Part shown: positions 14,083 to 36,323 of the stretch, one piece after another
Numbering within the stretch: the stretch's first letter is position 1
Layout of the letters: the number at the start of each line of letters is the position of its first letter
The notes under the pieces: generated by a model
What the model was told of the DNA's origin: nothing
Databases searched by the model: none
Seen by the model: the letters and a program-made list of their open reading frames with translations, nothing else
Assembly: GCA_017303905.1 (NCBI GenBank)
Contig: JAFLBH010000001.1
Location: 1,341,809-1,405,808, forward strand
Direction of reading: 5' to 3'
DNA: 64,000 nt
Source: Bacteroidota bacterium
GTDB lineage: Bacteria; Bacteroidota; Bacteroidia; B-17B0; Aurantibacillaceae
Program-made: the position numbers and the translations under genes

Positions 14083-14145
14083 CTAATCAAAAAACAACCA
14101 AGTCAATCCAAATCTAAACGCTCTGTCGGGTTGGTAGTAGCCGGG
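14083..14145 (-). repeat. 63-bp direct repeat, copy within the intact porin gene
   Basis: This is the 3' end of the porin gene, including its TAG stop, and the intact partner of 10437-10499. The two copies bracket about 3.6 kb. Confidence 0.9.
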
Positions 14146-15972
14146 CACAAAATTGTAATTGCTACCCATGAGTCCGTACAATGCATTCTCCACTTTTACA
14201 AAAAATTGTACCGGACGAATACGCGCGTTTAAGAATACATCTACAAAAGGATATTCGCCCACTGATTCGCGGTTTTGCAAATAGTACATATTATACGCCG
14301 GCATATAAGCATAGGCTTTAAACGAAGTGAAGTACTCGGCTTGCGCACCAATTTGTAATTGTAAATTGTTTTTAAAGAGATTGCCGGTGTAATACAAACT
14401 ACCTAAGGCACGTAAAGGCGCTAATCGTACAATCGATTCTTTATTGGTTGTTTGGTAAGTAAGATTTAAACCAATGCCTAAGTGCTTAAATAACACTTTA
14501 GAAAAATTTAAATTGTAAGCCCAATTACTAATTTCAACATTGGCTTGTTTAGGAAGCATGGTGCTATCCATATAAATTAAATGAGAGGTGTTTTGCCATA
14601 AAATGGAAAGTCCTAATCCGCTTATTTCGTTTTTAAAACCAAGTTTGGTTTGAAACAATCCTGTTTGTTTAAAGTTGTTGTTCCATCTGAAGTTGTTGCT
14701 GTAATTGTAATTGTATAAATAATCCGGATGGCGAAGTTCAGAAGCGATTTTTAAAAAGAGGTGTGTGCTTTTGTTGGTTGCATTTCCATTGTCATCGGCG
14801 CGTAAAGTAAGAGAAGATATCCACTCTGCTTTATAGTCACTCTGATAAACACCACTTACAACACTTGAATAATTTAATTCTGAGTTTATTTTTTTGTTTC
14901 TGTTAAATGCCGTACTGTCTTTGTGTTTGATGGTTTTGTTGAAGTACAATGAAACGTGTGCCAAATTATTTTGAAATATGCTATCGAAGAATTGATGTAG
15001 TACGGCATACTCGTTGCTATATCCAATCGAAGCACTCAGCCCGACTTCATTTAATTTAAATGTGTAATTAATGCGGTTATTGAATTTTCTTAAATGTGTG
15101 CTGTCGTTAGTTTGTACCGTATCTAAATATACAGTATTGTAGAAGTTTTCATAGCCAATTCCGTTATCCAGATACCAATAATAGTTTCCGGTGTAGTTAA
15201 ATTTATAATCGATGTAATGCGATATTTTTGTAGAATCTCTTTTATTTAAACGAAACCAGGGATTGAAATTAAAATCGGCTGTTTTATTTTCGCGTTTGGC
15301 ATTGCTGAGGTTCACATCCAACAAATCTTTTCCGATTAAAATATTTTCTTCAATGAGTGTATCGTATTTGATACCGCCGTTTTCCTGATTCTTTACTTTG
15401 TTATAGAGGAAGTAAGAATAAAATCCAAAGCGTTTTTTCGCGTTGGTATAATGTGTAGAGCTGTAAAAATTATTAACGAAAGTTTGTTGTTTGTTGTAAA
15501 AACCTAACGATCCAAAGCGGTTAAACTTTACTGTAATATTTAAATTCTTTTTAGTTGTATGCGAGAACAATAAACGGAATGTTTGTTCTTGTTTGCTTCC
15601 TGCAAATCCTGATAAGGAGGCAAATGGGCCTTTGCTTACATAGTAATTCACTTGCTGTGGCGAAATCACACTGATACCAAACGGCATTTGATAATAATGC
15701 AAGCCTAAGTCTCTTTGCTGATATTGCAATAAATAATTGGGTTGCGGTAATCCTAAATTGCCCGAATAGTTTCTTGGTGTATAGTTATGAAGATTAGTGG
15801 CTGAGGTATCGGGATAGGCGCTGCTAAAATCTTTGCTCAGTAAGTTTTCACCGTTTGATTTTGATGAGATGTATTCTTTGTCGGTACTGTATTTGGTTTG
15901 TGCAGGCAATATGAAATGTGCAAGCAAACTGCTTATCACTATCAGTAATTGTTTTATGCCTTTACGATACAA
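14083..15972 (-). CDS. Putative porin (Porin_10 family)
   Basis: A 629-residue outer-membrane protein with a signal peptide (about 1-24, ending LLAHFILPAQ). The body is aromatic-rich alternating beta sequence with motifs of Porin_10: NLGLPQPNYLLQYQQRDLGL, YYVSKGPFASLSGFAGSKQE, YNKQQTFVNNFY and NGGIKYDTL. It ends in an aromatic strand (FRFGLTWLFF plus D), as barrels usually do. Family function is inferred from fold only. The patatin gene lies 11 bp upstream and probably shares the transcript. Its last 63 bp are duplicated at 10437. Confidence 0.88.
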   Translation of the reverse strand: MYRKGIKQLLIVISSLLAHFILPAQTKYSTDKEYISSKSNGENLLSKDFSSAYPDTSATNLHNYTPRNYSGNLGLPQPNYLLQYQQRDLGLHYYQMPFGISVISPQQVNYYVSKGPFASLSGFAGSKQEQTFRLLFSHTTKKNLNITVKFNRFGSLGFYNKQQTFVNNFYSSTHYTNAKKRFGFYSYFLYNKVKNQENGGIKYDTLIEENILIGKDLLDVNLSNAKRENKTADFNFNPWFRLNKRDSTKISHYIDYKFNYTGNYYWYLDNGIGYENFYNTVYLDTVQTNDSTHLRKFNNRINYTFKLNEVGLSASIGYSNEYAVLHQFFDSIFQNNLAHVSLYFNKTIKHKDSTAFNRNKKINSELNYSSVVSGVYQSDYKAEWISSLTLRADDNGNATNKSTHLFLKIASELRHPDYLYNYNYSNNFRWNNNFKQTGLFQTKLGFKNEISGLGLSILWQNTSHLIYMDSTMLPKQANVEISNWAYNLNFSKVLFKHLGIGLNLTYQTTNKESIVRLAPLRALGSLYYTGNLFKNNLQLQIGAQAEYFTSFKAYAYMPAYNMYYLQNRESVGEYPFVDVFLNARIRPVQFFVKVENALYGLMGSNYNFVPGYYQPDRAFRFGLTWLFFD

Positions 15973-15983
15973 AGGATGTGATT

Positions 15984-17015
15984 TTAAAACTTATCAAAGA
16001 AATGTTCTTCTACATCAAAAGTGGATTTTAAACCAACTTGTTTGAAATCTGTTTCTAACCACTGCGATGCGATTTCTCTTCCTTTTTCTTTTAACTGCAA
16101 TAGAAATTCCCAAGACGTATTCATCTTGCTACTGTAGCTAAGCTGACTTAATGCATCATACCCCGAAATGGTGTGAACAAAAATCTCGCGGTTGGCTTTA
16201 TCGTCAATTCGTAAAATACCATTACGCAGCAGTTCGTTTCGGTAGTGAATTAATTTCATTTCGTTAATTAAACTACTGTTAAATGAAATTTCATTCACCC
16301 TGTCAGCAATGTCGCGAGCGGTTGTAGGCACCGAATTAATATTGATAGAATTAATTTTAATTAATACCACATCATGAATGTTTGTGTTGGTAATAAGAGG
16401 AAAAATGGGAGGGTTACCCATATAACCACCGTCCCAATAATACTCACCATTAATTTCTACAGCTTGAAATAAGAATGGTAAACAAGCGGATGCTAAAACC
16501 GAATCAACGGTAATATCTTTATTTGTAAAAATTTTAGCGCGATTTGTTTTTACGTTGGTAGCGCAAATAAATAATTTCTTTTTGTTATATAAATGCAACT
16601 CTTCAAAGTCAACTAAATCATTCAATATATCACGAAGCGGATTATAATTGAAGGGATTGAAATTGTAAGGCGACATAAACTGGGTCATGGCATTAAACCA
16701 TAAGTACCCAGGAGAATTGTAAATGTCTCCTTTACCAAAAAATTGATCCATCACACCCGGCTTAAATAAAAAGCTTCCGCTGTTAGCAATCTTAAGCCAC
16801 AACTGTTCCATCAATTCTTTTGCTTTTGGCGGACCGCCTACATGTAATCCATAAGCACACACAACGGCATTTACTGCACCTGCACTAGTCCCGCACATAG
16901 CATCAGCAACAATTTCATCAACTTCTAATAAGCGATCGAGTACACCCCAGGTAAAGGCGCCATGAGCGCCTCCGCCTTGTAAAGCAATTCCAACGTTTTT
17001 GATTTTTTTAGTCAT
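15984..17015 (-). CDS. Patatin-like phospholipase
   Basis: 343 residues with the patatin catalytic set: oxyanion loop GIALQGGGAHGAF near the N-terminus, nucleophile elbow GTSAG, and catalytic Asp in WDGGYMGNPP. There is no signal peptide, so it is cytoplasmic or membrane-associated. Family members hydrolyse acyl chains from phospholipids. It is the first gene of a two-gene unit with the porin, and a TATATTTG box lies 23 bp upstream. Confidence 0.95.
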   Translation of the reverse strand: MTKKIKNVGIALQGGGAHGAFTWGVLDRLLEVDEIVADAMCGTSAGAVNAVVCAYGLHVGGPPKAKELMEQLWLKIANSGSFLFKPGVMDQFFGKGDIYNSPGYLWFNAMTQFMSPYNFNPFNYNPLRDILNDLVDFEELHLYNKKKLFICATNVKTNRAKIFTNKDITVDSVLASACLPFLFQAVEINGEYYWDGGYMGNPPIFPLITNTNIHDVVLIKINSININSVPTTARDIADRVNEISFNSSLINEMKLIHYRNELLRNGILRIDDKANREIFVHTISGYDALSQLSYSSKMNTSWEFLLQLKEKGREIASQWLETDFKQVGLKSTFDVEEHFFDKF

Positions 17016-17087: not shown

Positions 17088-19301
17088 CTATTTTTTGGGA
17101 ATTTCTTTAAATTTTGTTACGATAAATTCAGTTCTTCTGTTTAAAGCATGATCCTCTTCTGTACAATTAGAGGTTAATTTACCTTCACAAGCACAGCCAT
17201 TTAAAAGTTTGGTCTCACCATATCCTTTACCTGTAATGCGGGTTCGAGGAATTCCTTTGCTGGCGATATAGCTTGCGCTTGCTTTTGCACGCGCCATAGA
17301 AAGAGCCATGTTAGATTTTGCAGCAGCGCGACAATCTGTATGTGAGCCTAACTCAACAGTCATTCCCGGATATTCCTTCATAATGGCTACAACTTTATTT
17401 AATTCGGCAGCCGCCACCGGTGTGATTTTTGATTTTCCTAAATCAAAGTATATTGGTTTGATATCGATTAATTTTGCTAAATCCATACCCACCATTACTT
17501 TTCCAATGTTTAAGTCAATAAGTTCGTTTAATTTAATCTCGCCCGGTTTAGAAATGGTATGATTGAAATCAATGGTTTTTGTAACATAACCGGTTTTTTC
17601 CAACGTGATTTTGAAATTTAACTTGTCCCCAACCTTGTTTCCTTTAAGTGGTTTCCTGTAATCACCGGTCGCCGCTGTTGTGTATGTGTCGAAGTCGCTA
17701 TTCGTGTTTGTGTTTTTGATGGTGATTTTCACATCTCCTAATGCTTCTTTCGTTTTAGCATCCAAAACAAAAGCTAATAAAGATAAATCAGGATCTTTTT
17801 CCATTAACATAACTTTGTCAAACTCATCTTTGTCTGACATTTTGGTTGATAAAGAATCGTTCGCGTCAAAATATTTTTCTTTACTCGCTAACAAATTATA
17901 TTGAGTGTCTTCTTCGATGAAATAAGTGTATTCACCTTTTTCATTTGTAGTGATGGAGTCGTTATTGATTTTAACTTTTGCATAAGGAACAATGGTTGTG
18001 TCGGAATCTTTGTCGCGGGTTTTGATGATGACATCTTTTCCACGCTTCACTTCCCGTAAAACTGTAAAGGCGTAAATGTCATCGTCCATATTTCCACTTT
18101 TTCGGTTTGAACTGATAAAGCCGGTTTTCATGTCATCGCTGAATACAATTCCGAAATCATCATAAGAGCTATTCATTGGTATACCCATATTGTATACCTT
18201 ACCTAATGAACCATCAGTCTTAATTTTAATTTCATAAATATCTAATCCGCCAATTCCGTCATGTCCGTTTGATGAAAAATAAAATAAGTTATTTGGTGCA
18301 ATGTAAGGGAACATTTCGTTGCCTTTAGTATTTACTTTTTCGCCCATGTTAACTGGAGTTCCCCAAACGCCTGAAGCGTCTTTTTTACTATACCAAATAT
18401 CTAATCCGCCAAATCCACCCGGCATATCAGATGCAAAATACAATGTGCTGCCGTCATCCGATAAAGAAGGATGTGCGCAGTTATACGTGTTATTGTTGAA
18501 TGGCATTGGCGAAACACGTTCGAATCCGTCAATATTTAAAACAGCTTCGTAAATTTCTAGTTTGTAATTTTTATCTCCACCGGCATTTTGTTTCGATGCG
18601 TTTCTCGTAAAAATTAAAGTCATTTTGTCTTTACTAAAACAAATCGGACCATTATTAAACTTAGAATCTAAATCACGCATGAATTTTTGCGGTTTCATGT
18701 ATTGACCATTTCCATCACGTTCTGTGGCATAAATAGTGTAATAGTTTTTATCTGTCCAACCGTGTTCGTGTCGGATCCATTGGGTATTATTGCGAGATGA
18801 GGTAAATACTAAAATACCTTGTGCAAAAAAAGCAGGTGAAAAATCGTTTTCAGGTGAGTTAAAGTTTACCGAATCAATTTTATAGGCATCAGCATTTTTT
18901 GCATAAGTCTGCATATTGGTAATTGCCTTTACCAAAATTTTTCCACGTTCATCAGCCGAATATTCTTCGAATAATTTTTTGGCTTCTTCGTAACGACCTA
19001 ATTCCATTAAGGCTTGTCCATAATAGAATTTCTGATTGGCGTCAGCGTTTCCTTTTTCAACTAATTTACCATAGCATAACGCTTTTCCCTTCGTATTGTT
19101 GGTTAATCGATAACAGTCGCCCAGTTTTGCTAATACAATCGTGTTGTTACTGTCTTTCTTAAATACTTTTTCGTATTTAGGAATCGCTTCAGCGTACGAT
19201 TGACTATCGTAAAGTTTATTGGCTTTAAGCATTAACCCTTCTTGCGCAATAACGAAAGAGGAAAATGCAACGGCTGATAATGCTAAAAATATTTTTTTCA
19301 T
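17088..19301 (-). CDS. PorE-like OmpA family protein (TPR, PD40, CRD, OmpA)
   Basis: 737 residues: signal peptide (about 1-19), TPR-like helices (about 25-135, with YGQALMELGRYEEAKKLFEEY), PD40/WD40-like propeller repeats (about 150-420: FSPAFFAQGILVFTSSR, HPSLSDDGSTLYFASDMPGG, FPYIAPNNLFYFSSNGHDG), carboxypeptidase-regulatory-like beta domains (about 430-590), and an OmpA peptidoglycan-binding domain (about 615-730, with IYFDLGKSKITP, LGSHTDCRA and NRRTEFIV). This order is that of PorE, a periplasmic T9SS protein that anchors to peptidoglycan. Located 8 bp after the PorP/SprF gene, so it is part of the adhesin cassette; it may be a cassette-specific paralogue rather than the core PorE. Confidence 0.9.
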   Translation of the reverse strand: MKKIFLALSAVAFSSFVIAQEGLMLKANKLYDSQSYAEAIPKYEKVFKKDSNNTIVLAKLGDCYRLTNNTKGKALCYGKLVEKGNADANQKFYYGQALMELGRYEEAKKLFEEYSADERGKILVKAITNMQTYAKNADAYKIDSVNFNSPENDFSPAFFAQGILVFTSSRNNTQWIRHEHGWTDKNYYTIYATERDGNGQYMKPQKFMRDLDSKFNNGPICFSKDKMTLIFTRNASKQNAGGDKNYKLEIYEAVLNIDGFERVSPMPFNNNTYNCAHPSLSDDGSTLYFASDMPGGFGGLDIWYSKKDASGVWGTPVNMGEKVNTKGNEMFPYIAPNNLFYFSSNGHDGIGGLDIYEIKIKTDGSLGKVYNMGIPMNSSYDDFGIVFSDDMKTGFISSNRKSGNMDDDIYAFTVLREVKRGKDVIIKTRDKDSDTTIVPYAKVKINNDSITTNEKGEYTYFIEEDTQYNLLASKEKYFDANDSLSTKMSDKDEFDKVMLMEKDPDLSLLAFVLDAKTKEALGDVKITIKNTNTNSDFDTYTTAATGDYRKPLKGNKVGDKLNFKITLEKTGYVTKTIDFNHTISKPGEIKLNELIDLNIGKVMVGMDLAKLIDIKPIYFDLGKSKITPVAAAELNKVVAIMKEYPGMTVELGSHTDCRAAAKSNMALSMARAKASASYIASKGIPRTRITGKGYGETKLLNGCACEGKLTSNCTEEDHALNRRTEFIVTKFKEIPKK

Positions 19302-19309
19302 ATTATTAA

Positions 19310-20263
19310 TTAAAAATAACGTGGTGTAACAATTTTCTTTCCTTTATAAGTAAAAGTATATCCTAATGCAATCTCGTGTGAACCCTGTGAATACTTTTGG
19401 ATTTTAGTTAAAGCGTAATCATACGAATAAGAGAAAACAAATTGAGGACCTAATTGAACGCCAAGCAAAATTGAAGCATCAGAGTTACTTCGGTAAGACA
19501 ATCCTGCCCAAATCATTTCTTTTATTAAAAAGTTCGCATTAATGTCAAATTCAACCGGTGCATTTTGTACGGCTTTTACCATTAATTGCCCTTTTAGTTT
19601 TAAGCTTTCAGCTAAATCAAATAGGCGACCTACAGTTAAATAATAATGGAATTTGGAAGGATCCATTTTTACAATTTTAGTAGCATTACCTGAAGCATCA
19701 AATAAAACACGATCATCAATCATACGAGGAATGGAAATGCCTGCATACATTTTTTTATCACTCCAATAAGCGCCGAAACCAAAATTTGGTGCTAACATAC
19801 TCGGTGAGTTTTGTGAAAGCTGAATGTCACCTGACTCTGTTGTTTTTAACTCGGAAAACTTATTTACCTGGTTGTGAATACCACCCATTAAACCTAATGC
19901 CAAATTACTGTTGGCGCTTGTTTTAATGCGGTACGCATAGCTTAAATAAACTAAATTACGGTTAAGTACTCCGATCTTTTCATTCAGGAAGCTTAATCCA
20001 ATACCCATTTTATTTCCCATCATTGGTCCGTGCATGGAGAATGTAGTTGTTATTGGTCTTCCCGGAAAATTAAGCCATTGCTGACGATGTAAGGCTGTTG
20101 CTGATAAAGCATCGCGACTGCCGGCATAGCCCGGATTGATAAACATTTCGTTAAACATGTACTGTGTAAACATGGCATCGTATTGTGCCTTGGTGTCCAC
20201 AACGTTAGTTAACAAAAGTAAACCAACACATGCTGCTTTGATGATATTTTTACTTGCTTTCAT
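19310..20263 (-). CDS. PorP/SprF family type IX secretion outer-membrane protein
   Basis: 317 residues with a signal peptide (about 1-26) and the family's N-terminal signature QYDAMFTQYMFNEMFINPGYAGSRD; the rest is barrel-like. SprF-type proteins help deliver a particular giant adhesin, such as SprB, to the surface and are usually encoded directly after it. That is the arrangement here: 20 bp after the 3384-residue adhesin and 8 bp before the PorE-like gene. I infer that this protein serves that adhesin. Confidence 0.94.
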   Translation of the reverse strand: MKASKNIIKAACVGLLLLTNVVDTKAQYDAMFTQYMFNEMFINPGYAGSRDALSATALHRQQWLNFPGRPITTTFSMHGPMMGNKMGIGLSFLNEKIGVLNRNLVYLSYAYRIKTSANSNLALGLMGGIHNQVNKFSELKTTESGDIQLSQNSPSMLAPNFGFGAYWSDKKMYAGISIPRMIDDRVLFDASGNATKIVKMDPSKFHYYLTVGRLFDLAESLKLKGQLMVKAVQNAPVEFDINANFLIKEMIWAGLSYRSNSDASILLGVQLGPQFVFSYSYDYALTKIQKYSQGSHEIALGYTFTYKGKKIVTPRYF

Positions 20264-20283
20264 ATTTTTAAATATCTTTTTTA

Positions 20284-23200
20284 TTAATACTGTAATACAA
20301 CAAATCCATTGACAGGTTTTATGTCACCATTCTTGAACTCAAGAATGTAATAGTAAGTTCCTTGAGGTAATTTTTGATTGCCTAAAGTTCCGTTAACGTT
20401 TGGCGTACCGTTCCATGTATTATCATAATTATCTTTTACGTAAACTTTATTACCCCAACGGTTAAATACGGTTAAGGTGGCTTCCTTACCTTTTAAACCT
20501 TTAATAACGAATAAGTCGTTTTTACCATCGTCATCCGGTGTGAAACCTTCAGGGATGAATAACTCAGTATCTTCAATAATTAATACGGTTGGTTTATTGT
20601 CAACCGGCTCGTTCCAAACACCATTACTATTCGTGTCAGGATTGTTGCCTGAATTAGAAGTGTCACTAACGGCTACCGAATTACTGCCAAGTGCGGATCC
20701 GATGGCGTAGTTACTGATTACGGTCACAGTATCAGGGAATACATTAATTGTGAAGATAATGTTACTTGTTGTGCCAGGTGCCATTACGCTGCTTGCCGGT
20801 ATGATCAGATTCGCATCTGAGTTTCCGTTGTAAGCACTGTTGGCAGTTAAGCTACCTGATGCAGTTGGACCACTCTTGATTGTGTAAGTAGCAGGATTTT
20901 TAATAGTGGTTCCGAATAAACTATCCTTCACTACAACATTCTTCAATGTATCGTTTCCTAGATTATGAACAGTAATTGTGTAAGTAATATCGTAACTGCC
21001 ATCGCCTAACGGACCATTTAAACTTCCTTCTTTTGTTAATCCAAAGAATTGGAATGGAGCTAAGTTTAAAGGAGTAGGAACGTTGTTGTTAGTAGGATCT
21101 CCGTCTAAGTCAGGATCTGTATCTAATCCAACTTGAGATGAGTCTGTAACAATTGTTGAAGCTGTTCCACCAACAGCCGCACCTAGAACACTGTTGTTAA
21201 ATGTTCCGAATACGCCATTTGGAATCACATTAACAGTAAACACAATTGTGTCTGTTTGTCCGATTGGTAATACACTGGTCAATGTATTTGTTAAGGCTGT
21301 TGAAGTAGATCCGTTAAATGCAGGGTCTATTGTTAAACTCGAACCTGTGCTTGTAATTACCGGTGCCGAAACTACGGAGAATGCAGTCGGTGCGGGGAAG
21401 GTAGCACTTAAATTCTCAGTCAATAATACATTGTTTAATTGAGAAAACCCGGTGTTCTTCACTACTACTTTATAAGCTACGTCGTAAGAACCATTCGCGT
21501 TTAAGGTAGTTGAGCTTACAGCTTTAGCAATTCCTAATGAGTTGTTTACTGAGCAATCAATTGGAATTAATACTAATGTAGTGTCTTTGAAGCATCCGTT
21601 AATGCCAAATATTCTTATTGTATACGGTGTGTTTACTAATGGATTCGATAATGTATTTGTAATAATTCCGGATACAGGTATAACTGTTGCAGTTGCATAA
21701 CTTGCGGTTCCTGTATATGTAACACCTGCAACAAAATCATATTTATCCGTGATTACAAAGTTTCCTAAAGTTATTGTTCCATCGTTGTTGGTTACAGAGC
21801 CGGTACAAGTTGCAGGAGTGATAGTTGCAGTAACAGGTACAAACGTATCTGTAATAGCTGCTACCGAATCTAATTTGGTACAACCTGATAATGGATCAAA
21901 TGCGTTTACATAATACCAACCACCTGTTGTTACTGTGAAGCTAGTCGCGTTTGAAGTAAAGCTTGATGGGCCGGTCCAGGTATAGGTTACACCACTCACA
22001 GTTGAAGTAACTGCAATTGTAACTGTATTACTTAAACAGGTGATTGTTCCCGTTGAAGTTAATGTTAAAGTTGGACCAGCTGTGTTAGTAGCAACTGATG
22101 TAGTTGCTGTAGTTATACAACCGTTAGATAAATCGGTTACAGATAAAGTATAAACGCCACCTGCAGTAATTCCGGTTGGATTTTGCACGTTAGACGTATA
22201 TGAAGCAGGGCCGTTCCAGAAGTAGCTAATGTTCGTAGAAGTGGAAACTCCGGTTAAACTTGCGGTAGTTGTTAAGCAAGTAATTGTACCGGTGCTGCTT
22301 GCTACTACGCCAGCAGGACTTGGAGAAACATTGATTGTTACAAATGCAGTGTCAGGCGAACAACTTCCATTTACACCGATTACAGAATAAGTAGTGGTTG
22401 TTGTTGGCGTAACAACTACAGTAGCTCCTGTTAATCCTCCGGGAATCCAAGTGTAAGACAATGCGCCTGCAGATGTCAACGTAGCACTGTATCCGCTACA
22501 CAATGTATTGCTTGAAGCTACAGCGGTAACAGTTGGGTTAGTTAATACGCTAACTGTAATTATCGCATTAGATGTACATCCAAATGAATTTGTACCATCA
22601 ACAGTATAAGTTGTAGTTACAGTTGGAGATACTACAGTTGTAGAACCGCTAAGTGCACCAGGATTCCATGTATACGTTGATGCGCCATTTGCAGTCAATG
22701 TTACGTTTCCTACAACACAAATTGAAGTAGGCGTTGCGCTTGCTGTAATTGTAGGTGTATTAACCACAAGTGATAGGGTTCCTGAATTTGAACAACCATT
22801 TACGTCAGTACCACTTATCGTATAAGTTGTAGTTAAAGTTGGATTTACAACAACTGTTGTTCCTGTTAATGAGCCAGGCATCCACGAATAAGTTAAAGCA
22901 CCTGATCCGGTTAAGGTAGCTGAAGCGCCACTACAAATTGCAGTTGGTGAACTAACTGCCGTAACTGTAGGTAAGGTGTTAACCGTTAGAGAAACAGTTC
23001 CTGTGTTTGTACAAGCGCCATTACTTCCTGTTACAGTATAAATAGTTGTAGAAGTTGGTGTAACAACAACTGATGTTCCTGTTAAGGTACCAGGCATCCA
23101 TGTATAAGTGGTAGCGCCGTTTCCTGTTAAGGTAGCCGAGCTTCCGGCACAAACTGCTGTAGCTGAACCAACAGCTGATACAGTTGGGATGTTTAATACG

Positions 23201-26200
23201 TTAAGAGTGATTGTTCCTGCTCCTGTACAACCTAAAGTATTTGTACCTGCAATTGTATAGGTAGTTGTAACAGTAGGATTCACCACTGCAGTACTTCCTG
23301 TTGTTGCAATTGGTAACCAGGTATAAGTGTTAGCACCAGACGCGGTAAGTGTTGCCGTTCCGCCAATACAAATTGAAGTTGGAGATGCAATAGCTGTAAT
23401 TGTCGGTGTATTTACATTAACCAGTACGGTTCTTGTTCCTGCGCAAATGCCTCCATTTGTTCCGGTTACTGTATAAATTGTTGTAACGGTAGGAGAGGCA
23501 ACTACTGTTCCTCCGGTAACCGCCATTGGCATCCAAGTATAGGAAGTAGCTCCTGTAGCCGTTAAAGTTGTTAATCCGCCGGCACATAATATTGTTGGGC
23601 TTGCCGTTGCATTGATCGTTGGAGATGGAAGAACAGTTATGCTAATTGTTCTTGTATTTGTACAAGATCCATTAGCTCCTGAAACAGTATAAGTAGTATT
23701 CACACTTGGGGTTACTACAACTGTTCCGCCAGATAATGCACCGGGCTGCCATGTGTAAGTAGTAGCACCGGTTGCCGTTAGAGTAGCAGATGTTCCACCA
23801 CATATTGTACTTGATGAACTTGCAACAGTAACAGTAGGAGTTGTGGTTACATTAACAGTTACTGTTTTTGTACCAATACAACCCGCGGCGTTAATTCCAC
23901 TTACGGTATAAGTTGTTGTGGTGCTCGGACTAACTATCGCGTTACTTCCTGTTGTAGCAATCGGCATCCATGTATATGTTAAAGCACCGCTTGCTGTAAG
24001 TGTTGCTGTGCTGCCGCTACAAATAGTAGTTGGAGTAGCAGTTGCATTTATAGTTGGGGTGTTTACGTTTAAAAGTACGGTTCGGGTAGCATTACATAAG
24101 CCGCCGTTGTTTCCGGTCACCGTATAGATAGTTGTAGCGGTAGGACTGGCAACAACTGTAGCTCCAGTTAATGAACCAGGCATCCATGTATATGTTGTAG
24201 CGCCACTTGCGGATAATGTTGTTTGACCTCCTGCACAAATTGTTGTAGGAGAAGCAATCGCAGTAATAGTAGGCGAAGGTAAAACAGTAATACTAATTGT
24301 TTGCGTATTAAAGCAATTTCCATTCGCTCCGCGAACAGTATAGGTTGTACTTGTTGTTGGAGTAACAACAACAGTTCCTCCTGTTAGTGGTCCTGGTGTC
24401 CAAGTATAGTTCGTTGCGCCGGTAGCAGTTAAGGTAGCTGATGTTCCTGAACATAAGGTGCTAGAAGAAGTAGAAGCTACCACTGTAGGAGTTGTGTTAA
24501 CGATTAAATTAACAGTGCGTGTTGTAGTACATCCTGCACCGTTAGCTGCAGTAACAGAATAAACCGTAGTAACACTTGGAGAAACAATCACTGTGTTTCC
24601 TGTAACTGCCGGCGGCATCCAGGTATAACTTAAAGGTGGTCCGAATGCGAATGCAACTAAAGTGGCAGTTGAACCACTACACATTGCAGTTGGATTAGCA
24701 ACAGCGTTAAAGTTTGGACCTGCAATAACATTTATAGTATATGTTCTTGTTGCGCTACATCCCGCGGCAGAAGTTCCGGTAACTGTATATATAGTTGTTA
24801 CTGTTGGAGAAACTGCAACAGCAGAACCTGTTAAACTTCCCGGCATCCAGGTATATGATGAAGCACCGTTAGCTGTAAGGGTAGTTGTAGTGAAGCGACA
24901 GATTGTTGTAGTAGGGCTACTAACCGTTATGGTTGGATTAGGATTAACGTTTAGGGTAATTGTACGAGTAACTGCACAAGCACCGTTAGCACCGGTTAAT
25001 GTATAAGTAGTAGATACAGTAGGAGTCACAACAACAGTTGAGCTGGTAGAACCTCCCGGTATCCAAGTATAATTAGTAGCACCAAACGCAGTTAAGGTAG
25101 CACTGTTTCCAATACAAAGAGCAGTTGGTGTACTGGTTGCGAATAGAGTTGGAGTAGGGTTTGCAATAATTGAAACCGTTCCCGTTGAACTACAGATTCC
25201 GTTACTGCCGGTTACTGTATATGTTGTGTTACCTGTAGGAGTTACAACCACAGGATTTGTAGTTAAGTTGCCCGGATTCCATGTGTATGATGATGCGCCC
25301 ACAGCACTCAGCGTAATAGTGTCTCCAATACAAATATTCGTTCTGCTTGCGCTTGCTAACACGGTAGGCCCTGTAAATACAGTAATATCAATGGTGTTAG
25401 TTCCTACACAAGAGCCATTAGAACCTGTTAAGGTATAGGTTGTGTTTGTAGTTGGTGTAATAACTATACTCGATGTGGTTAATGAACCCGGCATCCATGT
25501 ATAAGTGGTAGCACCGCTTCCTGTTAAGGTTGCAGAGTTGCCAGAGCAAACAGCTGTTGAAGTAGCTGCAATGTTTATTGTTGGAATTGGAGCCACAGTT
25601 ACAGTTAATGTGCGCGTGTTGCTACAAGTTCCGATGGCACCTCTAACAGTATAGGTAGTGGTCGTACCAGGAGTAACTGTTACAGTTGAGCCATTTAATC
25701 CGCCCGGATTCCAAGTATATGATGCAGCCCCTGATGCAGTTAATGTTGCTGTACCTGTTCCGCAAATCAAAGTCGGACTTCCAGAAGCTGTAACGGTTGG
25801 AGTAGGATTTACAATTAATGAAAGCGTAGTGCTTGATGAACAAGTTCCATTTGTTCCTATTAAAGTATATGTTGTGTTTGAAGTAGGACTCACAACAACG
25901 CTTGATGTTGTGAAACCTCCAGGATTCCAAGTGTAGCTGGTTGCACCACTAGCAGAAAGCGTAGCGCTTTGTCCTGAACAAATTGCAGTTGAACTGGAAG
26001 TGGCAACCAAAGTTGGGTTTGGATTAACTGTTAAAGAAACCGTATTTGTATTGGTACAATTTCCGTTGGCTCCTGTTACAGTATATATTGTTGTAGCGGT
26101 TGGGGTAACTACAATAGTGCCTCCGGTTACATTTCCAGGTAACCAAGTATAAGTGGTAGCGCCGGTAACTGTTAGTGTTGCTGAATTTCCTGCACAAACT

Positions 26201-29200
26201 GCGGTTGGTGAACTTGCAGCGGAAATTGTTGGTGTGGTTGTTACCACTAAATTAACTGTTGTGTTAGAACTACAGAATCCGTTAAAGCCGGTTACAGTGT
26301 AAATAGTAGTTGATGCCGGAGTTACTGTAACTGTTCCGCCAGATAAAGATCCTGGCATCCAAGTGTACGAAGTTGCACCGCTCGCGCTTAAAGTTGAACT
26401 TGTGCCTGAACAAATATTTGTTGGTGATGCAGAAGCTGTAACAGTAGGATTGTTATTTACTGTAATAGTAATCGTATTAGTTGAAGTACATCCTGTGTTA
26501 TCTCCGGTAACTGTATAAGTTGTGGTGATTGTAGGCGATACGGCTACTAAACTTCCGGTTAAACTTCCCGGCATCCATGAATAGGTTGTGGCGCCGCTTG
26601 CAGTTAACGATGAAGTACTTCCAACGCATATCGATGATGAAGAAGCAGTGATGTTAACGGTAGGTGTCGGACTAACAGTTACAGTTAATGTTGTATTATT
26701 TGAACAGCCTAATGCGTCAACACCTCTTACAGAGTAGGTGGTAGTTGCACCCGGACTCACAACTGCCGGATTCGTTAATATTGTACCAGGATTCCAAGTA
26801 TAGGAAACAGCACCTGAGGCAGTCAATGTTGTTGTGACTCCTAAGCAAATTCCGGAAGGAGAAGCGGTAGCTGTTATTGTTGGTCGTGGGTTAACTGTAA
26901 TTGTGATCGTATTGGTTCCTGAACAGCTTCCGCTCGTACCTGTAACAGTATAAGTAGTTGTTAGGGTAGGGTTCACAACCGTTAGAGAACCAGTTAATGC
27001 ACCCGGATTCCAAGTATATGTTGTAGCGCCTGTTGCAGTTAATGAAACAGATTGGCCGGCGCAGATTGTATTCGAAGAAGCTGATGCTAAAACTGTAGGA
27101 GTTGTGTTTACGGTAAGAGAAACAGTTCTTGTGTTGGTACAAGAACCATTCGCGCCGGTAACTGTATAAACAGTTGTTGAAGATGGACTCACTGTTGTTG
27201 TGGCTCCGCTTAATCCTCCCGGATTCCAAGTATAAGTTGTTGCGCCGCTTGAAGAAAGTGTTGCGGTTTGACCCGAACATATAGCTGTAGGCGATGAAGT
27301 AGCTGTTATGGTAGGAGTTGTAGTAACTGTTACAGTCACAACAGCTGTATTAGAACATGAACCGGTTAATCCGGTTACTGTATAAGAAGTAGTAGTTGTT
27401 GGACTTACTGTTATAGTACCACCGGTTAAAGAGCCTGGATTCCATGTATAAGAAGTTGCTCCAGTTACCGTTAAGGTACTTGAGTTGCCGGAACAAATGC
27501 TGGATGAGCTGGCGCTTGCTACTAATGTAGGAGTGCTGCCAACCGTTACTGAAATAGTTTCTGTATCAATACAAGTTCCATTGGCGCCGGTAACTGTATA
27601 TGTTGTAGGTACTGCCGGAGAAACAACAACTGCGCTTCCTGTTAGAGAGCCCGGCATCCATGTATATGTAGTTGCACCTGTTGCTGTTAGGGTAGCGTTA
27701 TTTCCACTACAAACTGTTGTTGCGGTACTGCTTACGTTAACGGTAGGAGTGGTGTTAACCGTTAGATTAACAGTGCGTGTAACCGAACAACTACCACTGG
27801 ATCCGGTTACAGAATATACTGTTGTTGAAGTAGGATTCACAACAATGGAAGAAGTGGTTAAAGAACCCGGCATCCAAGTATAGCTTGTAGCACCACTTGC
27901 AGATAAGGTAGAAGAAGCTCCTGAACAGATTGAAGTTGGAGAGGCAGTCGCAATAACTGTTGGTGATGGATTAACAGTAATAGTTATTGTTTCTGTATCA
28001 GTACAAGAACCGTTAGCTCCTGTTAAAGTATAAGTTGTTGTAGATGCCGGAGAAACAGAAACGTTGGCACCTGTTAAAGAGCCGGGATTCCATGTATAAG
28101 TTGTAGCTCCACTCGCACTTAAAGTGGTTGAGTTGCCGCTACAAATAATTAATGAGCTGGCAGAAGCAGCTACGGTAGGTGTTGTTACTACGTTTACGGT
28201 TATAGTGCGACTTGATGAACAACCTGCAGCACTTGTTCCGTTAACTGTATATGTTGTTGTTACACCCGGTGTAACTGTTACGGCCGATCCTGTTAATCCT
28301 CCTGGGTTCCAGGTATAGGTTGATGCGCCAGATGCACTCAACGCAACTGTAGCACCACTACCTGAACAAATTGATGTTGGCGTAGCTGTAGCATTAATTG
28401 TTGGTGTCGGATTTACTAATAAGGTTACAGTTCTGGTATTTGTACAACCGCCATTTGATCCGGTTACTGAATAAGTTGTGGTAATAGTTGGCGAAACAGA
28501 TACGTTAGCACCGGTTAAAGAACCCGGCATCCATGTATAGGTGGTTGCGCCTGATGCCGATAAAGTAGCGCTGCTTCCTGCACAAATTACTGTTGGAGAA
28601 ACAGAAGCTGTAACTGTAGGAGTGCTGTTAACCGTTAGAGAAATAGTACGCGTATTAGTACACGATCCATTAGATCCTGTAACGGTATATACCGTTGTTA
28701 CAGTTGGCGAAACTGAAACGTTAGCACCGGTTAAAGAACCCGGCATCCAAGTATAAGTAGTAGCGCCTGTTGCGGATAATGTTGCCGTACTTCCAACGCA
28801 AATGGCAGTTGGACTACTTGTGGCGTTAACAGTTGGAGTTGTGTTGACTACTAACTGAAGTGTGCGTGTTCCGGTACAGGATAAAGTGTTCGATCCAATT
28901 ACTGTATATGTGGTGGTTGATGATGGAGAAACTACCACTGCGCTACCTGTTAATGCACCGGGATTCCATGTATAGGTTGATGCGCCGGAAGCTGTTAAGG
29001 TGGCGCTTCCGCCAACGCAAATTGAGGTTGGAGAACTCAATGCTGTAATCGTTGGTGTTGGTCCAACCGGAATGGTTAATGTGGTTTGTCCTATACATCC
29101 ACCGGTTGAACCGAGAATCGTATAGGTCGTGGTTGTCGTAGGACTCAATGCAACTACACCTCCCGCTATTCCGCCGGGATTCCACGTATAAGTTAATGCA

Positions 29201-30438
29201 CCGGTGGCGACTGCGTTTGCAGAGTTGCCCGGACAAATTGTTCCCGAAAGATTAAACGCATTAATAGTAGGGGCTGTGCCGACCGTTATACCAATGGTTG
29301 TTGATGCTGTACAAGCTCCGCTTAATCCGAATAAAGTATAAGTTGTGCTTACTGTAGGTGAAACCGCTAAAGTTGAACCCGTAAAGTTTCCGGATGGAGT
29401 CTGCCATGTATAGGATGTGGCACCTGAACCGGTTAATGTTACAGATCCTGGAGCACAAAAAGTACTGGAAGAAGCAGATGCAGTAACAGTAGGATTCCCA
29501 ACCACTACTTGAACAGTTGATGTTCTTGTTCCTCCGCAATAATTTAATGATGCAGTATAGGTACTGGTAGTGGTCGGACATGGCGCGGCTGTTAATCCGG
29601 ATGCGGTGAATCCACCGGGGCCTGCCCAGTTAACGCTAAAGCTTGGTGCAGCTGTTGGAACAAATCGCCATGATTCGTTAATAGCGGTCCATGCAGTTAA
29701 TGTATTACGAGTAGGTGGTGCAGTAAATACTGTAGCATTGGCGTTTTGAATACCAATTAATCCGCGACCATTATTCCATGACATACACGCGGTACTGTTT
29801 ACAATGTTTACAGCTATTTGATTAGAACCTTCATAAAGAGCAATCTGAAAAGAAGAAACCGGAGATCCGCATGAAAATAAAGTGACACCACTCCAATAAA
29901 CAACGAAAGCGCGGCATGGCGCAACACCTGTCGTATAAGTACGAACAACTCCTCCCGGAAATGGATCATAATCGCGATAAGCACCACAAATCGTTCTACC
30001 AGGATGCTCAACAAGATTCGGGAGAATTTGGGTTGTAACCCATGATTCAAACGTATTAGCTCGGGAAAGATCAAAAGTAATTTCTCCATTCGATCCAACA
30101 CATAATTTTTTATAGGTTTGTCCGTAAAAACAGAAGTCAAAACCAATACTGATAGAATCACTCCACAAATCATCAGAAGACGTTGCAAAAACGTTGGAAC
30201 CTCCAACATAAGGATGGGTTGAATAACTTACCGAGGCAACAGAATAACTGGTAGTAGCATTACCCGGCGCCACAACGCTGGCTGTTAAGTTAGCACAGTT
30301 GCCCGAGCAAACGGTGGTTGACGGACCGGTTGCAACTTGAGCGTTAATACTTGGGTTAATACATTGAGAAGCTCCAAATTTTGGAAGCAAAAGAAGCAAC
30401 ACAAAAAATAAAAAATAAAACTTAAAAAAACGATTCAT
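20284..30438 (-). CDS. Giant SprB-like repeat adhesin with gliding-motility C-terminal domain
   Basis: A 3384-residue surface protein. Signal peptide about 1-24. A unique N-terminal region (about 25-315) includes WSDSISIGFDFCFYGQTYKK and GSNGEITFD, resembling nidogen-like surface domains. Residues 316-2707 are 33 tandem Ig-like units of 72-73 residues, typically starting PTVTA and carrying GATTYTW.PG.LTG, VSPT.TTTYTVTG and two conserved Cys. Two more divergent Ig-like domains follow (about 2708-2870), then two DUF11-like domains (SYDVAYKVVVKNTG; SYDITYTITVHNLG). The C-terminal domain of about 90 residues (LFIPEGFTPDDDGKNDLFVI ... VFNRWGNKVY ... GTYYYILEF) is the CHU_C/type B T9SS signal. Likely a filamentous adhesin for gliding, attachment or biofilm. 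First or second gene of its cassette. Confidence 0.95.
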   Translation of the reverse strand: MNRFFKFYFLFFVLLLLLPKFGASQCINPSINAQVATGPSTTVCSGNCANLTASVVAPGNATTSYSVASVSYSTHPYVGGSNVFATSSDDLWSDSISIGFDFCFYGQTYKKLCVGSNGEITFDLSRANTFESWVTTQILPNLVEHPGRTICGAYRDYDPFPGGVVRTYTTGVAPCRAFVVYWSGVTLFSCGSPVSSFQIALYEGSNQIAVNIVNSTACMSWNNGRGLIGIQNANATVFTAPPTRNTLTAWTAINESWRFVPTAAPSFSVNWAGPGGFTASGLTAAPCPTTTSTYTASLNYCGGTRTSTVQVVVGNPTVTASASSSTFCAPGSVTLTGSGATSYTWQTPSGNFTGSTLAVSPTVSTTYTLFGLSGACTASTTIGITVGTAPTINAFNLSGTICPGNSANAVATGALTYTWNPGGIAGGVVALSPTTTTTYTILGSTGGCIGQTTLTIPVGPTPTITALSSPTSICVGGSATLTASGASTYTWNPGALTGSAVVVSPSSTTTYTVIGSNTLSCTGTRTLQLVVNTTPTVNATSSPTAICVGSTATLSATGATTYTWMPGSLTGANVSVSPTVTTVYTVTGSNGSCTNTRTISLTVNSTPTVTASVSPTVICAGSSATLSASGATTYTWMPGSLTGANVSVSPTITTTYSVTGSNGGCTNTRTVTLLVNPTPTINATATPTSICSGSGATVALSASGASTYTWNPGGLTGSAVTVTPGVTTTYTVNGTSAAGCSSSRTITVNVVTTPTVAASASSLIICSGNSTTLSASGATTYTWNPGSLTGANVSVSPASTTTYTLTGANGSCTDTETITITVNPSPTVIATASPTSICSGASSTLSASGATSYTWMPGSLTTSSIVVNPTSTTVYSVTGSSGSCSVTRTVNLTVNTTPTVNVSSTATTVCSGNNATLTATGATTYTWMPGSLTGSAVVVSPAVPTTYTVTGANGTCIDTETISVTVGSTPTLVASASSSSICSGNSSTLTVTGATSYTWNPGSLTGGTITVSPTTTTSYTVTGLTGSCSNTAVVTVTVTTTPTITATSSPTAICSGQTATLSSSGATTYTWNPGGLSGATTTVSPSSTTVYTVTGANGSCTNTRTVSLTVNTTPTVLASASSNTICAGQSVSLTATGATTYTWNPGALTGSLTVVNPTLTTTYTVTGTSGSCSGTNTITITVNPRPTITATASPSGICLGVTTTLTASGAVSYTWNPGTILTNPAVVSPGATTTYSVRGVDALGCSNNTTLTVTVSPTPTVNITASSSSICVGSTSSLTASGATTYSWMPGSLTGSLVAVSPTITTTYTVTGDNTGCTSTNTITITVNNNPTVTASASPTNICSGTSSTLSASGATSYTWMPGSLSGGTVTVTPASTTIYTVTGFNGFCSSNTTVNLVVTTTPTISAASSPTAVCAGNSATLTVTGATTYTWLPGNVTGGTIVVTPTATTIYTVTGANGNCTNTNTVSLTVNPNPTLVATSSSTAICSGQSATLSASGATSYTWNPGGFTTSSVVVSPTSNTTYTLIGTNGTCSSSTTLSLIVNPTPTVTASGSPTLICGTGTATLTASGAASYTWNPGGLNGSTVTVTPGTTTTYTVRGAIGTCSNTRTLTVTVAPIPTINIAATSTAVCSGNSATLTGSGATTYTWMPGSLTTSSIVITPTTNTTYTLTGSNGSCVGTNTIDITVFTGPTVLASASRTNICIGDTITLSAVGASSYTWNPGNLTTNPVVVTPTGNTTYTVTGSNGICSSTGTVSIIANPTPTLFATSTPTALCIGNSATLTAFGATNYTWIPGGSTSSTVVVTPTVSTTYTLTGANGACAVTRTITLNVNPNPTITVSSPTTTICRFTTTTLTANGASSYTWMPGSLTGSAVAVSPTVTTIYTVTGTSAAGCSATRTYTINVIAGPNFNAVANPTAMCSGSTATLVAFAFGPPLSYTWMPPAVTGNTVIVSPSVTTVYSVTAANGAGCTTTRTVNLIVNTTPTVVASTSSSTLCSGTSATLTATGATNYTWTPGPLTGGTVVVTPTTSTTYTVRGANGNCFNTQTISITVLPSPTITAIASPTTICAGGQTTLSASGATTYTWMPGSLTGATVVASPTATTIYTVTGNNGGLCNATRTVLLNVNTPTINATATPTTICSGSTATLTASGALTYTWMPIATTGSNAIVSPSTTTTYTVSGINAAGCIGTKTVTVNVTTTPTVTVASSSSTICGGTSATLTATGATTYTWQPGALSGGTVVVTPSVNTTYTVSGANGSCTNTRTISITVLPSPTINATASPTILCAGGLTTLTATGATSYTWMPMAVTGGTVVASPTVTTIYTVTGTNGGICAGTRTVLVNVNTPTITAIASPTSICIGGTATLTASGANTYTWLPIATTGSTAVVNPTVTTTYTIAGTNTLGCTGAGTITLNVLNIPTVSAVGSATAVCAGSSATLTGNGATTYTWMPGTLTGTSVVVTPTSTTIYTVTGSNGACTNTGTVSLTVNTLPTVTAVSSPTAICSGASATLTGSGALTYSWMPGSLTGTTVVVNPTLTTTYTISGTDVNGCSNSGTLSLVVNTPTITASATPTSICVVGNVTLTANGASTYTWNPGALSGSTTVVSPTVTTTYTVDGTNSFGCTSNAIITVSVLTNPTVTAVASSNTLCSGYSATLTSAGALSYTWIPGGLTGATVVVTPTTTTTYSVIGVNGSCSPDTAFVTINVSPSPAGVVASSTGTITCLTTTASLTGVSTSTNISYFWNGPASYTSNVQNPTGITAGGVYTLSVTDLSNGCITTATTSVATNTAGPTLTLTSTGTITCLSNTVTIAVTSTVSGVTYTWTGPSSFTSNATSFTVTTGGWYYVNAFDPLSGCTKLDSVAAITDTFVPVTATITPATCTGSVTNNDGTITLGNFVITDKYDFVAGVTYTGTASYATATVIPVSGIITNTLSNPLVNTPYTIRIFGINGCFKDTTLVLIPIDCSVNNSLGIAKAVSSTTLNANGSYDVAYKVVVKNTGFSQLNNVLLTENLSATFPAPTAFSVVSAPVITSTGSSLTIDPAFNGSTSTALTNTLTSVLPIGQTDTIVFTVNVIPNGVFGTFNNSVLGAAVGGTASTIVTDSSQVGLDTDPDLDGDPTNNNVPTPLNLAPFQFFGLTKEGSLNGPLGDGSYDITYTITVHNLGNDTLKNVVVKDSLFGTTIKNPATYTIKSGPTASGSLTANSAYNGNSDANLIIPASSVMAPGTTSNIIFTINVFPDTVTVISNYAIGSALGSNSVAVSDTSNSGNNPDTNSNGVWNEPVDNKPTVLIIEDTELFIPEGFTPDDDGKNDLFVIKGLKGKEATLTVFNRWGNKVYVKDNYDNTWNGTPNVNGTLGNQKLPQGTYYYILEFKNGDIKPVNGFVVLQY
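23188..23838 (-). repeat. Three-unit higher-order repeat, copy B
   Basis: Residues 2201-2417, Ig-like units 27-29. It matches units 24-26 in order: 27 resembles 24 (ends TISITVLPS), 28 resembles 25 (VVASPT, short linker VNT), and 29 resembles 26 (MPIATTGS versus LPIATTGS). Exactly 651 bp. Confidence 0.8.
23839..24489 (-). repeat. Three-unit higher-order repeat, copy A
   Basis: Residues 1984-2200, Ig-like units 24-26, exactly 651 bp and directly adjacent to copy B. The shared quirks (VLPS ending, VNT linker one residue short, PIATTGS core) do not occur together elsewhere in the array. Confidence 0.8.
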
Positions 30439-30469
30439 AGCGACTATGATTTAAATGAAATAAATGCTT

Positions 30470-30937
30470 TTATTTTAGGCGAGTTTCAAGATTGTCAAAA
30501 AGGTGTGGGTCTTTTGTGTTAAGTGCTTTTACTTTTTGATTTTCAGTATTGCTCAGGTAAGTATCCGCTTCGTTAATAGGTTGTGGAGATTGGAAGAATT
30601 TTCTTTCTTTCTCAGTAAAAATCAAATATTCAAGAGATGTTTTTGAATTAGTTTTTAGAAAGTCTGTACATTTTTTTCTTATTGCAAACGCTAAATCGGC
30701 ACTTTTTTTAGGATCGGTTTCGAACGACGCAACCGAAGCTATTTGAAGCATTAACAATTCCTTAATTGTTGTTTCTGCAGCTACGTCAGTTAAATTAATA
30801 CCGTGCTTTTGAACACTTCGAATGGCAATGTCATTCTCGTTTATAAATGATTTCAGAATAGAAGCATCCTGAGATTTAAGGTTAAAAGCAAAAACCAGAA
30901 AAAAACCGGTTGTAAAAAACTGCACTAACTTCTTCAT
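30470..30937 (-). CDS. Small secreted protein of unknown function upstream of the adhesin
   Basis: 155 residues from MKKLVQFFTTGFFLVFAFNLKSQ, a clear signal peptide; an upstream ATG at 30994 would add 19 residues that do not look like a signal start. The mature part is helical and charged (ASILKSFINENDIAIRSVQ, KKSADLAFAIRKKCTDFLK, FTEKERKFFQS). I do not recognise the family. It ends 31 bp before the adhesin start on the same strand, so it is probably the first gene of the adhesin cassette and may aid its export or assembly (inference). Confidence 0.75.
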   Translation of the reverse strand: MKKLVQFFTTGFFLVFAFNLKSQDASILKSFINENDIAIRSVQKHGINLTDVAAETTIKELLMLQIASVASFETDPKKSADLAFAIRKKCTDFLKTNSKTSLEYLIFTEKERKFFQSPQPINEADTYLSNTENQKVKALNTKDPHLFDNLETRLK

Positions 30938-34748: not shown

Positions 34749-36323
34749 ATGAGGAAGAGAACTTTATATATCATTCTGGTTTTATTTGGATTTTCACTTT
34801 CTGTTTTCAGTCAGCAAGGTAAGGCCGATGTAGAAGATGCTGATGAGCATTATAAGCATGGCAATTACATTATGGCTTTGCCAATTTATCGAGATATTTT
34901 AAAGAAAGAAAAAAACAATCGCAAGGTTCAGTTTAAACTGGCCATGTGTTATTTAAATACCAATTACAATCGTACCGAAGCGATCAAACATTTGGAATCA
35001 ATTACTGAAGATCCCAAGTGTGATGAAGAGGCTTGGTTTCAATTAGGTCGCGCTTATCACCAAGCAGGAAAGGTAGATGATGCAATCATAGCATTTAATA
35101 AATTTAAGCAATTAGCTCCTAAAAAATTTGTGGAAGAGGTTGCACGAAATTTAGAGATGTGCAACAACGCGAAGATTTTTATGGAGAATCCGGTAAATGT
35201 TGCGTTTACGAATTTAGGTAAGGAAATTAATTCTGAAGATCCGGATTATTATCCATTCGTAAGTTCTGATGAAACATTTATGGTGTTTACTTCACGTCGC
35301 AAAGAAAATATAGGCGGAAAGAAAGTGGAGGTTGACGGCTATCATCCAAGTGATATTTGGTTTAGTAAAGTGGAAGCCGGTAAATGGACCAAAGCAACAA
35401 ATCCCGGAAACATTATTAATGGTGCTTTAGATGAACAAGCTGTTTGGATGAAGCCGGATGGTTCTGAAATGATGGTCTATTTAGATCACATCGAAAAATT
35501 TGGTGATTTGTATCTATCGAAAAGAAATGCCGGTGGTGATTTCATGAAATGGAAACCATTACCAAATGCAGAATTGATTAATGAAAAAATTGAAACATCC
35601 GGTTGTTTTGGTCCGGATGGTAACGTTATCTTTTTTGCGCGCCGCGACAAAGTAGAATCTAAAAACGATATTTATTCATGCCGTAAATTACCAAACGGTA
35701 AATGGGGTATGCCTTACAAATTACCGGATGAAATTAATACACCTTATAATGAGGATTTCCCTTCACTTTCTCCGGATGGTTTAACGCTGTATTTTGCATC
35801 TGAAGGACATAACAGCATGGGTGGTTATGATTTGTTTAAATCAACTTATAATCCGGAAAACAATACTTGGAGTAAAGCTGTGAATTTGGGTTTTCCAATC
35901 AATTCAACGACGGATGATAGAAGCATTAGTATTACTTCCGATAACCGTGCCGCTTATATTAGCACGTGGAGACCGGGAAGTTTTGGTGATTTAGATATTT
36001 ACCGAATTCGTTTTAACGACAACGAACAAATCGTTAGGATTTTTACCGGAAAAATTTCGTTAAGCGATACTATTTATAAACGTACTTCAACGATTGTAAC
36101 TATCATTGCAAAAAACGTTGCCAATAACGAAGAGTTTACTTTTGTGCCTAATTCTAAAACAGGAAAATATGTTGTGGCTTTAGGTGCGGGAACGTATAAA
36201 TTGTCTATTCATGCAATCGGCTACGAAGTTTTAACCGAAGAGATGGTTATTTCCGATATCGGAAAAATTGAAATTGAGAAAAATGATAAGAATTACGTCC
36301 TCACGCGAAAGGCCAAAAAGTAG
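34749..36323 (+). CDS. Exported TPR and PD40 propeller protein lacking an OmpA domain
   Basis: 524 residues: signal peptide (about 1-21, ending SVFSQ), TPR helices (about 28-140, with AWFQLGRAYHQAGKVDDAI), then PD40 repeats (about 165-430: DYYPFVSSDETFMVFTSRR, FPSLSPDGLTLYFASEGHN, DDRSISITSDNRAAYIST) and a small C-terminal beta domain (about 435-520). The order mirrors the first two-thirds of the PorE-like protein at 17088, but with no peptidoglycan-binding OmpA domain. Likely periplasmic; role unknown. The last 41 bp overlap the next gene. Confidence 0.85.
   Translation: MRKRTLYIILVLFGFSLSVFSQQGKADVEDADEHYKHGNYIMALPIYRDILKKEKNNRKVQFKLAMCYLNTNYNRTEAIKHLESITEDPKCDEEAWFQLGRAYHQAGKVDDAIIAFNKFKQLAPKKFVEEVARNLEMCNNAKIFMENPVNVAFTNLGKEINSEDPDYYPFVSSDETFMVFTSRRKENIGGKKVEVDGYHPSDIWFSKVEAGKWTKATNPGNIINGALDEQAVWMKPDGSEMMVYLDHIEKFGDLYLSKRNAGGDFMKWKPLPNAELINEKIETSGCFGPDGNVIFFARRDKVESKNDIYSCRKLPNGKWGMPYKLPDEINTPYNEDFPSLSPDGLTLYFASEGHNSMGGYDLFKSTYNPENNTWSKAVNLGFPINSTTDDRSISITSDNRAAYISTWRPGSFGDLDIYRIRFNDNEQIVRIFTGKISLSDTIYKRTSTIVTIIAKNVANNEEFTFVPNSKTGKYVVALGAGTYKLSIHAIGYEVLTEEMVISDIGKIEIEKNDKNYVLTRKAKK

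Follow-up and report, generated by a model that had tools for sequence, protein, structure and literature searches.

Gene content and organization of the cassette

The window (the whole stretch of 64,000 nucleotides analysed here) comes from the genome of an uncultured Bacteroidota bacterium (G000; 3.95 Mb in 6 contigs, 99.99% complete). Four open reading frames on its minus strand span positions 17088-30937, with intergenic gaps of 31, 20 and 8 bp; the genes, coordinates, lengths and gaps given in the original prediction were re-derived exactly from the open reading frames. In the order of reading, the features are:

30470..30937, minus strand: secreted helical protein of 155 residues, hereafter the small protein (signal peptide, AF2 model)
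20284..30438, minus strand: adhesin of 3384 residues with a type B T9SS C-terminal domain and about 34 Ig-like repeats (domain matches)
29569..30381, minus strand: N-terminal 'head' of the adhesin, about residues 20-290, common to all partners of the small protein
20284..20556, minus strand: CHU_C / TIGR04131 type B sorting domain, adhesin residues 3295-3382 (domain matches)
19310..20263, minus strand: PorP/SprF-family outer-membrane carrier, 317 aa (TIGR03519; tail ...GKKIVTPRYF)
17088..19301, minus strand: PorE-like periplasmic protein, 737 aa (TPR, PD40 propeller, CarboxypepD_reg, OmpA)

The adhesin has a mass of 334 kDa and Ig-like repeats of ~72 residues each, and its C-terminus matches TIGR04131 with 45 bits (cut-off 35) and CHU_C with 84.5 bits, identifying a type B sorting domain. 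The carrier (257 bits against TIGR03519, cut-off 90.6) is encoded directly downstream of the adhesin, after 20 bp, and is adjoined in turn, 8 bp downstream, by the gene for the TPR-propeller-OmpA protein. Seven genomes, the window genome included, have the complete four-gene order; its conservation in at least six others (G002, G007, G035, G008, G033 and G020), which the original prediction had proposed looking for, supports the reading of the four genes as one cassette. A search ahead of the small gene gave no consensus Bacteroidota promoter, and generic promoter and terminator scans remained at shuffle level.

Directly after the PorE-like gene (window 14083-17015, minus strand) lie genes for a patatin-like phospholipase (343 aa) and a Porin_10 protein (629 aa). 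A same-sized pair occupies this position after the PorE-like gene in G002 and G007, and the putative operon may therefore be longer in this genus. Another gene on the same strand (window 10742-13735) encodes a protein of 997 residues in which SBBP propeller repeats are combined with a type A T9SS sorting domain, and thus a second T9SS cargo close to the cassette. On the plus strand (window 34749-36323), a 524-residue PorE-like protein with TPR and propeller regions, and no OmpA match, is encoded near mutL, a position kept in G006, G004 and G003.

The small protein belongs to no named family

The signal peptide of the small protein ends before an invariant Gln23, the likely start of the mature chain, and the sequence contains neither a lipobox cysteine nor a T9SS C-terminal domain; an upstream TTG start would give a product of 174 aa. 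Its AF2 model (pLDDT 90, pTM 0.82) consists of helices at residues 2-47, 52-70 and 76-97. The gene is single-copy in G000. By profile search we identified relatives at the protein level in 32 places, spread over 28 of 87 genomes from this bacterial family, which establishes the 155-aa open reading frame as a real gene. The original prediction had recognized no family for this protein, in agreement with the absence of any Pfam or NCBIfam match above cut-off and of any PDB match; sub-threshold Pfam and NCBIfam matches to the small proteins (e.g., MmeI_Mtase, E 0.03) were treated as noise. PDB fold searches yielded no usable match for the model of the small protein (best E 2.3) or for that of the adhesin head (best E 0.3), and PDB sequence-profile searches found nothing. 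L096|6, a product of 163 aa encoded between two adhesins, was considered as a further member, as was L119|3, and both were ruled out by sequence. Also dropped were a match in G051 (E 0.0018), as chance, and one in G159 (3.7e-4), which falls at the start of a 482-aa transport-type protein.

Cassette-type small genes are paired with head-bearing adhesins in all evaluable cases

One of the 32 small-gene places is truncated by the end of its contig. In the 31 evaluable places, without exception, the next gene lies on the same strand, starts within about -53 to +40 bp of the small gene, and codes for an adhesin that has the same N-terminal head. In the co-occurrence test suggested in the original prediction, the small protein of this branch is found only with such adhesins (31/31). 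The converse does not hold. Head adhesins without a small gene are present both in a lolA-adjacent lineage of ~800-1270 residues (represented in the window genome at C3:384639, and in G006, G002, G001, G004 and others) and in genus g3. The small protein implies the head, but the head does not imply the small protein; the head without a small gene at C3:384639 rules out that every head adhesin needs one, and any help that the small protein gives is not universally needed. The head adhesin at this site, the second in the genome (L125:5622-11956; G000 C3:384621-390955), has 1048 aa and a head 54% identical to that of the cassette; it follows a LolA-like gene, stands in tandem with another type B adhesin, and has no small gene, PorP or PorE-like neighbour.

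Small-head pairs are accompanied by both PorP and PorE in seven genomes, by PorE only in L094, and by neither in L096, L217, L226 and L227. That the small protein serves the carrier or anchor side (PorP or the PorE-like protein) would fit the complete four-gene order in those seven genomes, as well as a PorP gene directly upstream of a more distant relative in G270 (see below). Given the five loci in which no PorP adjoins the pair, and the several without PorE, we regard this as improbable: a dependence on PorP or PorE is ruled out by the pairs that lack either, and the small protein is tied to the adhesin, not to the anchor.

We compared a tree of 27 small proteins with one of 28 heads. In each, a mutL-linked lineage is separated from a second, paralogous lineage, and both contain the close pairs G000/G006a, G020/G101, G068/G083, G065/G079 and G008/G023. 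The deep nodes of the small-protein tree are weak, and G008/G023 and G006b change place between the trees, so that congruence is good but not complete. By branch length, the small protein evolves about twice as fast as the head. At a syntenic locus (G000 C1:1543-1553k), where the flanking proteins are 92-99% identical to those of G006 C19, G006 carries a small gene and a head adhesin and G000 carries neither; the pair is absent as a unit, by either loss or gain. In three other genomes of the genus, a small gene and a head adhesin follow similar ~500-residue genes.

A wider family of small helical proteins in Bacteroidia

A class-wide search with the cassette profile gave weak matches in G129 and G331. 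A profile made from these two alone retrieved members in 19 genomes outside the family and, reciprocally, cassette small proteins in G023 and G028. Comparison of the mature-region profiles gave a probability of 96.5% and a score of 60 (the best of 60 column-shuffled controls reached 15), at an identity between cassette and wider-family members of only about 12%. The small protein forms a divergent branch within a larger Bacteroidia family of small helical proteins, and the mature helical core is common to both.

At four loci (L317, L318, L319 and L320), the wider-family gene immediately follows a ~1670-residue PorU2-type gene that has a PorV2-type gene upstream; scores over the cut-off were tested and obtained for PorU2 in L317, L319 and L320, and for PorV2 in L318 and L319. 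L315 has a partial PorU2. The order PorV2-PorU2-small gene is repeated in several Bacteroidia families (L317, L319, L320), and our literature search found no paper that names PorU2 together with type IX secretion. Elsewhere, the small gene immediately precedes a head adhesin (G042, from another family), is flanked on one side by a PorP gene and on the other by a type B adhesin (G270), or lies upstream of a gene that is followed by a CHU_C fragment (G351). Some members have no evident T9SS link, adjoining PBP4 in G331 and G253 and other genes elsewhere, so the link, counted over related genomes that are not independent samples, is recurrent but not universal.

These contexts bear on two further explanations of the pairing. 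The small protein might be a structural partner displayed with the adhesin, as a tip or head subunit, instead of a transient periplasmic helper. The strict pairing with the head domain and the congruent paralogue split of the two proteins would be expected of such a partner, but the small protein has no T9SS C-terminal signal and its wider family adjoins PorU2/PorV2 where there is no head adhesin, which makes this explanation unlikely. Still a little less probable, in our judgement, is that the small protein merely neighbours the adhesin by co-inheritance and performs housekeeping in the envelope without any bearing on the adhesin, as its fast evolution, the wider-family members beside PBP4 or other genes, and the heads that occur without it might suggest: adjacency in 31 of 31 cases extends over two paralogous loci and several genomic sites, small gene and head adhesin are jointly absent from the syntenic locus, and adjacency to a head adhesin recurs independently in another family (G042).

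The carrier and the PorE-like protein suggest probable static anchoring

The best NCBIfam matches of the PorE-like protein are CHU_0125_OmpA (451 bits, cut-off 620) and PorE (NF052230; 342.5 bits, cut-off 600). As it falls below the PorE cut-off and scores higher against the CHU_0125 family, 'PorE-like' is the appropriate term. No cysteine is present near the end of its signal peptide, and hence no lipobox of the kind expected of a PorE lipoprotein. Its OmpA domain aligns with PDB entry 6TOP (1.7e-12), attributed to the study of the PorE C-terminal domain by Trinh et al. 2020, and keeps the HTD and NxxLSxxRA peptidoglycan-contact motifs; it is predicted to be of the peptidoglycan-binding type, as in PorE.

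In the whole genome we counted 18 PorP/SprF genes, about 50 CHU_C domains and some 20 PorE-like proteins. According to open reading frame maps, 9 of the 18 PorP genes adjoin a PorE-like gene, and six of these nine have the adhesin-PorP-PorE order of the window (the window itself; C2:363k; C3:6k; C1:308k; C1:1728k; C1:1711k). A cassette-bound PorE-like protein, which the original prediction had singled out as a sign of a private export and anchoring route, is thus not unusual, and the arrangement has already been described in F. johnsoniae. The core porE that the same prediction had asked after probably exists separately, since a stand-alone, full-length candidate at C1:1509217 scores better (509 of 600 bits). 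The trio of adhesin, carrier and PorE-like protein is therefore a known arrangement; the new part is the 155-residue protein, a consistently linked component from an undescribed family.

Two models of anchoring have been proposed, static with PorE and mobile without it (PMC9143113). PorE and PorP of P. gingivalis form a complex with PG1035, a type B protein, and in F. johnsoniae six porP-like genes adjoin porE-like genes, whereas sprB/sprF do not (PMC9143113). In a 2025 study, Fjoh_3952, whose operon includes a PorE-like gene, formed static foci, and F. johnsoniae substrates without such a gene moved (PMC12618676). SprF requires a Cys-X-Cys tail for its disulfide with GldK and for movement (PMC12635249). 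The carrier of the window lacks this motif: its tail, GKKIVTPRYF, has no cysteine, and it and its seven orthologues (8/8) all end in a cysteine-free (T/S)PRYF. Among the 18 carriers of the genome, none has Cys-X-Cys in the last 40 residues.

A gliding system like SprB/SprF, in which the carrier would ride a GldJ/GldK track and the adhesin would move, has in its favour the type B C-terminal domain with PorP/SprF downstream, a T9SS translocon SprA over its cut-off, and a GldJ-like protein beside another PorP at C1:1193891. Against it stand the cysteine-free tails of all eight orthologous carriers and the absence of Cys-X-Cys near the ends of the genome's own carriers, the adjacent PorE-like gene, unlike the arrangement of mobile F. 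johnsoniae substrates (PMC9143113, PMC12618676), and a GldJ match below cut-off (380 of 458 bits). We judge it to have a small chance of being right. The label 'SprB/SprF-style' in the gliding sense is not supported, because a carrier without the Cys-X-Cys tail and a neighbouring PorE-like gene are both features of static, not mobile, type B systems in the literature. From published models together with the sequence, we infer that the cassette is static and wall-anchored rather than of the SprB type.

Five other paralogous carriers of the genome (L106, L107, L108, L114, L117) end in a single-cysteine motif (CPRL, CPSF, CPVFM, CDRY), possibly a variant of the SprF cysteine tail, and several of these adjoin PorE-like genes. 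At L108:6241-9047 (G000 C1:1192.7-1195.5k), a PorP/SprF gene has the GldJ-like gene (380 bits, cut-off 458) directly behind it, which makes this site a candidate locus for a mobile carrier.

Comparison with known systems and proposed role of the small protein

The closest counterpart by gene order is Fjoh_3952-Fjoh_3951-Fjoh_3950 of F. johnsoniae, which encodes a type B substrate, an SprF-like shuttle and a PorE-like protein, and for which static wall anchoring is the literature model (PMC12618676); the available text of that study reports no upstream small gene of this family. The P. gingivalis PorE-PorP-PG1035 set likewise combines a type B protein with PorP and PorE; the complex was shown there (PMC9143113), and its PorE is a lipoprotein, unlike the PorE-like protein of the window, which is without a lipobox and under the PorE family cut-off. 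SprB/SprF (sprC-sprD-sprB-sprF) resembles the cassette in having a giant repetitive type B adhesin followed by a carrier, but differs in the Cys-X-Cys tail missing from the window carrier, in the PorE-like gene present here, and in the upstream gene. The unnamed small open reading frame downstream of PorV2-PorU2 in other Bacteroidia is homologous to the 155-residue protein and has different neighbours.

By their signal peptides, all four products are predicted to enter the periplasm via Sec. On the published models, the PorP/SprF carrier would collect the adhesin C-terminal domain at the SprA translocon and stay bound in the outer membrane. The PorE-like protein could tie the carrier to peptidoglycan via its OmpA domain, and the adhesin would thereby be fixed and not dragged along a gliding track, as the literature and the missing Cys-X-Cys tail suggest. 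The small protein, whose synthesis presumably just precedes that of the adhesin, is most likely retained in the periplasm, which is the simplest reading of a signal peptide without a T9SS signal. There it might bind the N-terminal region of the adhesin and keep the giant chain export-competent until the C-terminal signal is made; binding to the head would make sense because this part leaves Sec first and the export signal comes last. The most likely role of the small protein is thus that of a putative helper that assists the adhesin in the periplasm. That chaperone-like proteins of the periplasm take part in the T9SS is shown by SkpA, a general helper (PMC10994853). The helper model is weakened by F. 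johnsoniae type B fusions, which were secreted from constructs with only the C-terminal domain and the carrier, the cargos being small (PMC12618676).

Taken together, we consider it about evenly balanced whether the full reading is right, in which the locus is a static T9SS cassette that anchors a type B adhesin to the wall and adds a putative helper specific to this adhesin. A broader possibility, to which we give appreciably less than even weight, is that the small protein stands for an undescribed but widespread group of T9SS accessory proteins in the periplasm, with each member devoted to a particular cargo or attachment module that it escorts or folds before export; on this tentative view the cargos would be head-bearing giant type B adhesins here, and in other settings either PorU2/PorV2 modules or different type B adhesins. 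The accessory factors known for the T9SS, SprE and SkpA among them, act generally, and a small protein that is inherited together with a single class of giant cargo would be a first indication that periplasmic help can be cargo-specific here. It would bear on the way in which a chain of more than 300 kDa is kept in the periplasm while its export signal is still to be made, and the definition of the family and its contexts makes the helper idea testable in any cultured bacterium that has a member.
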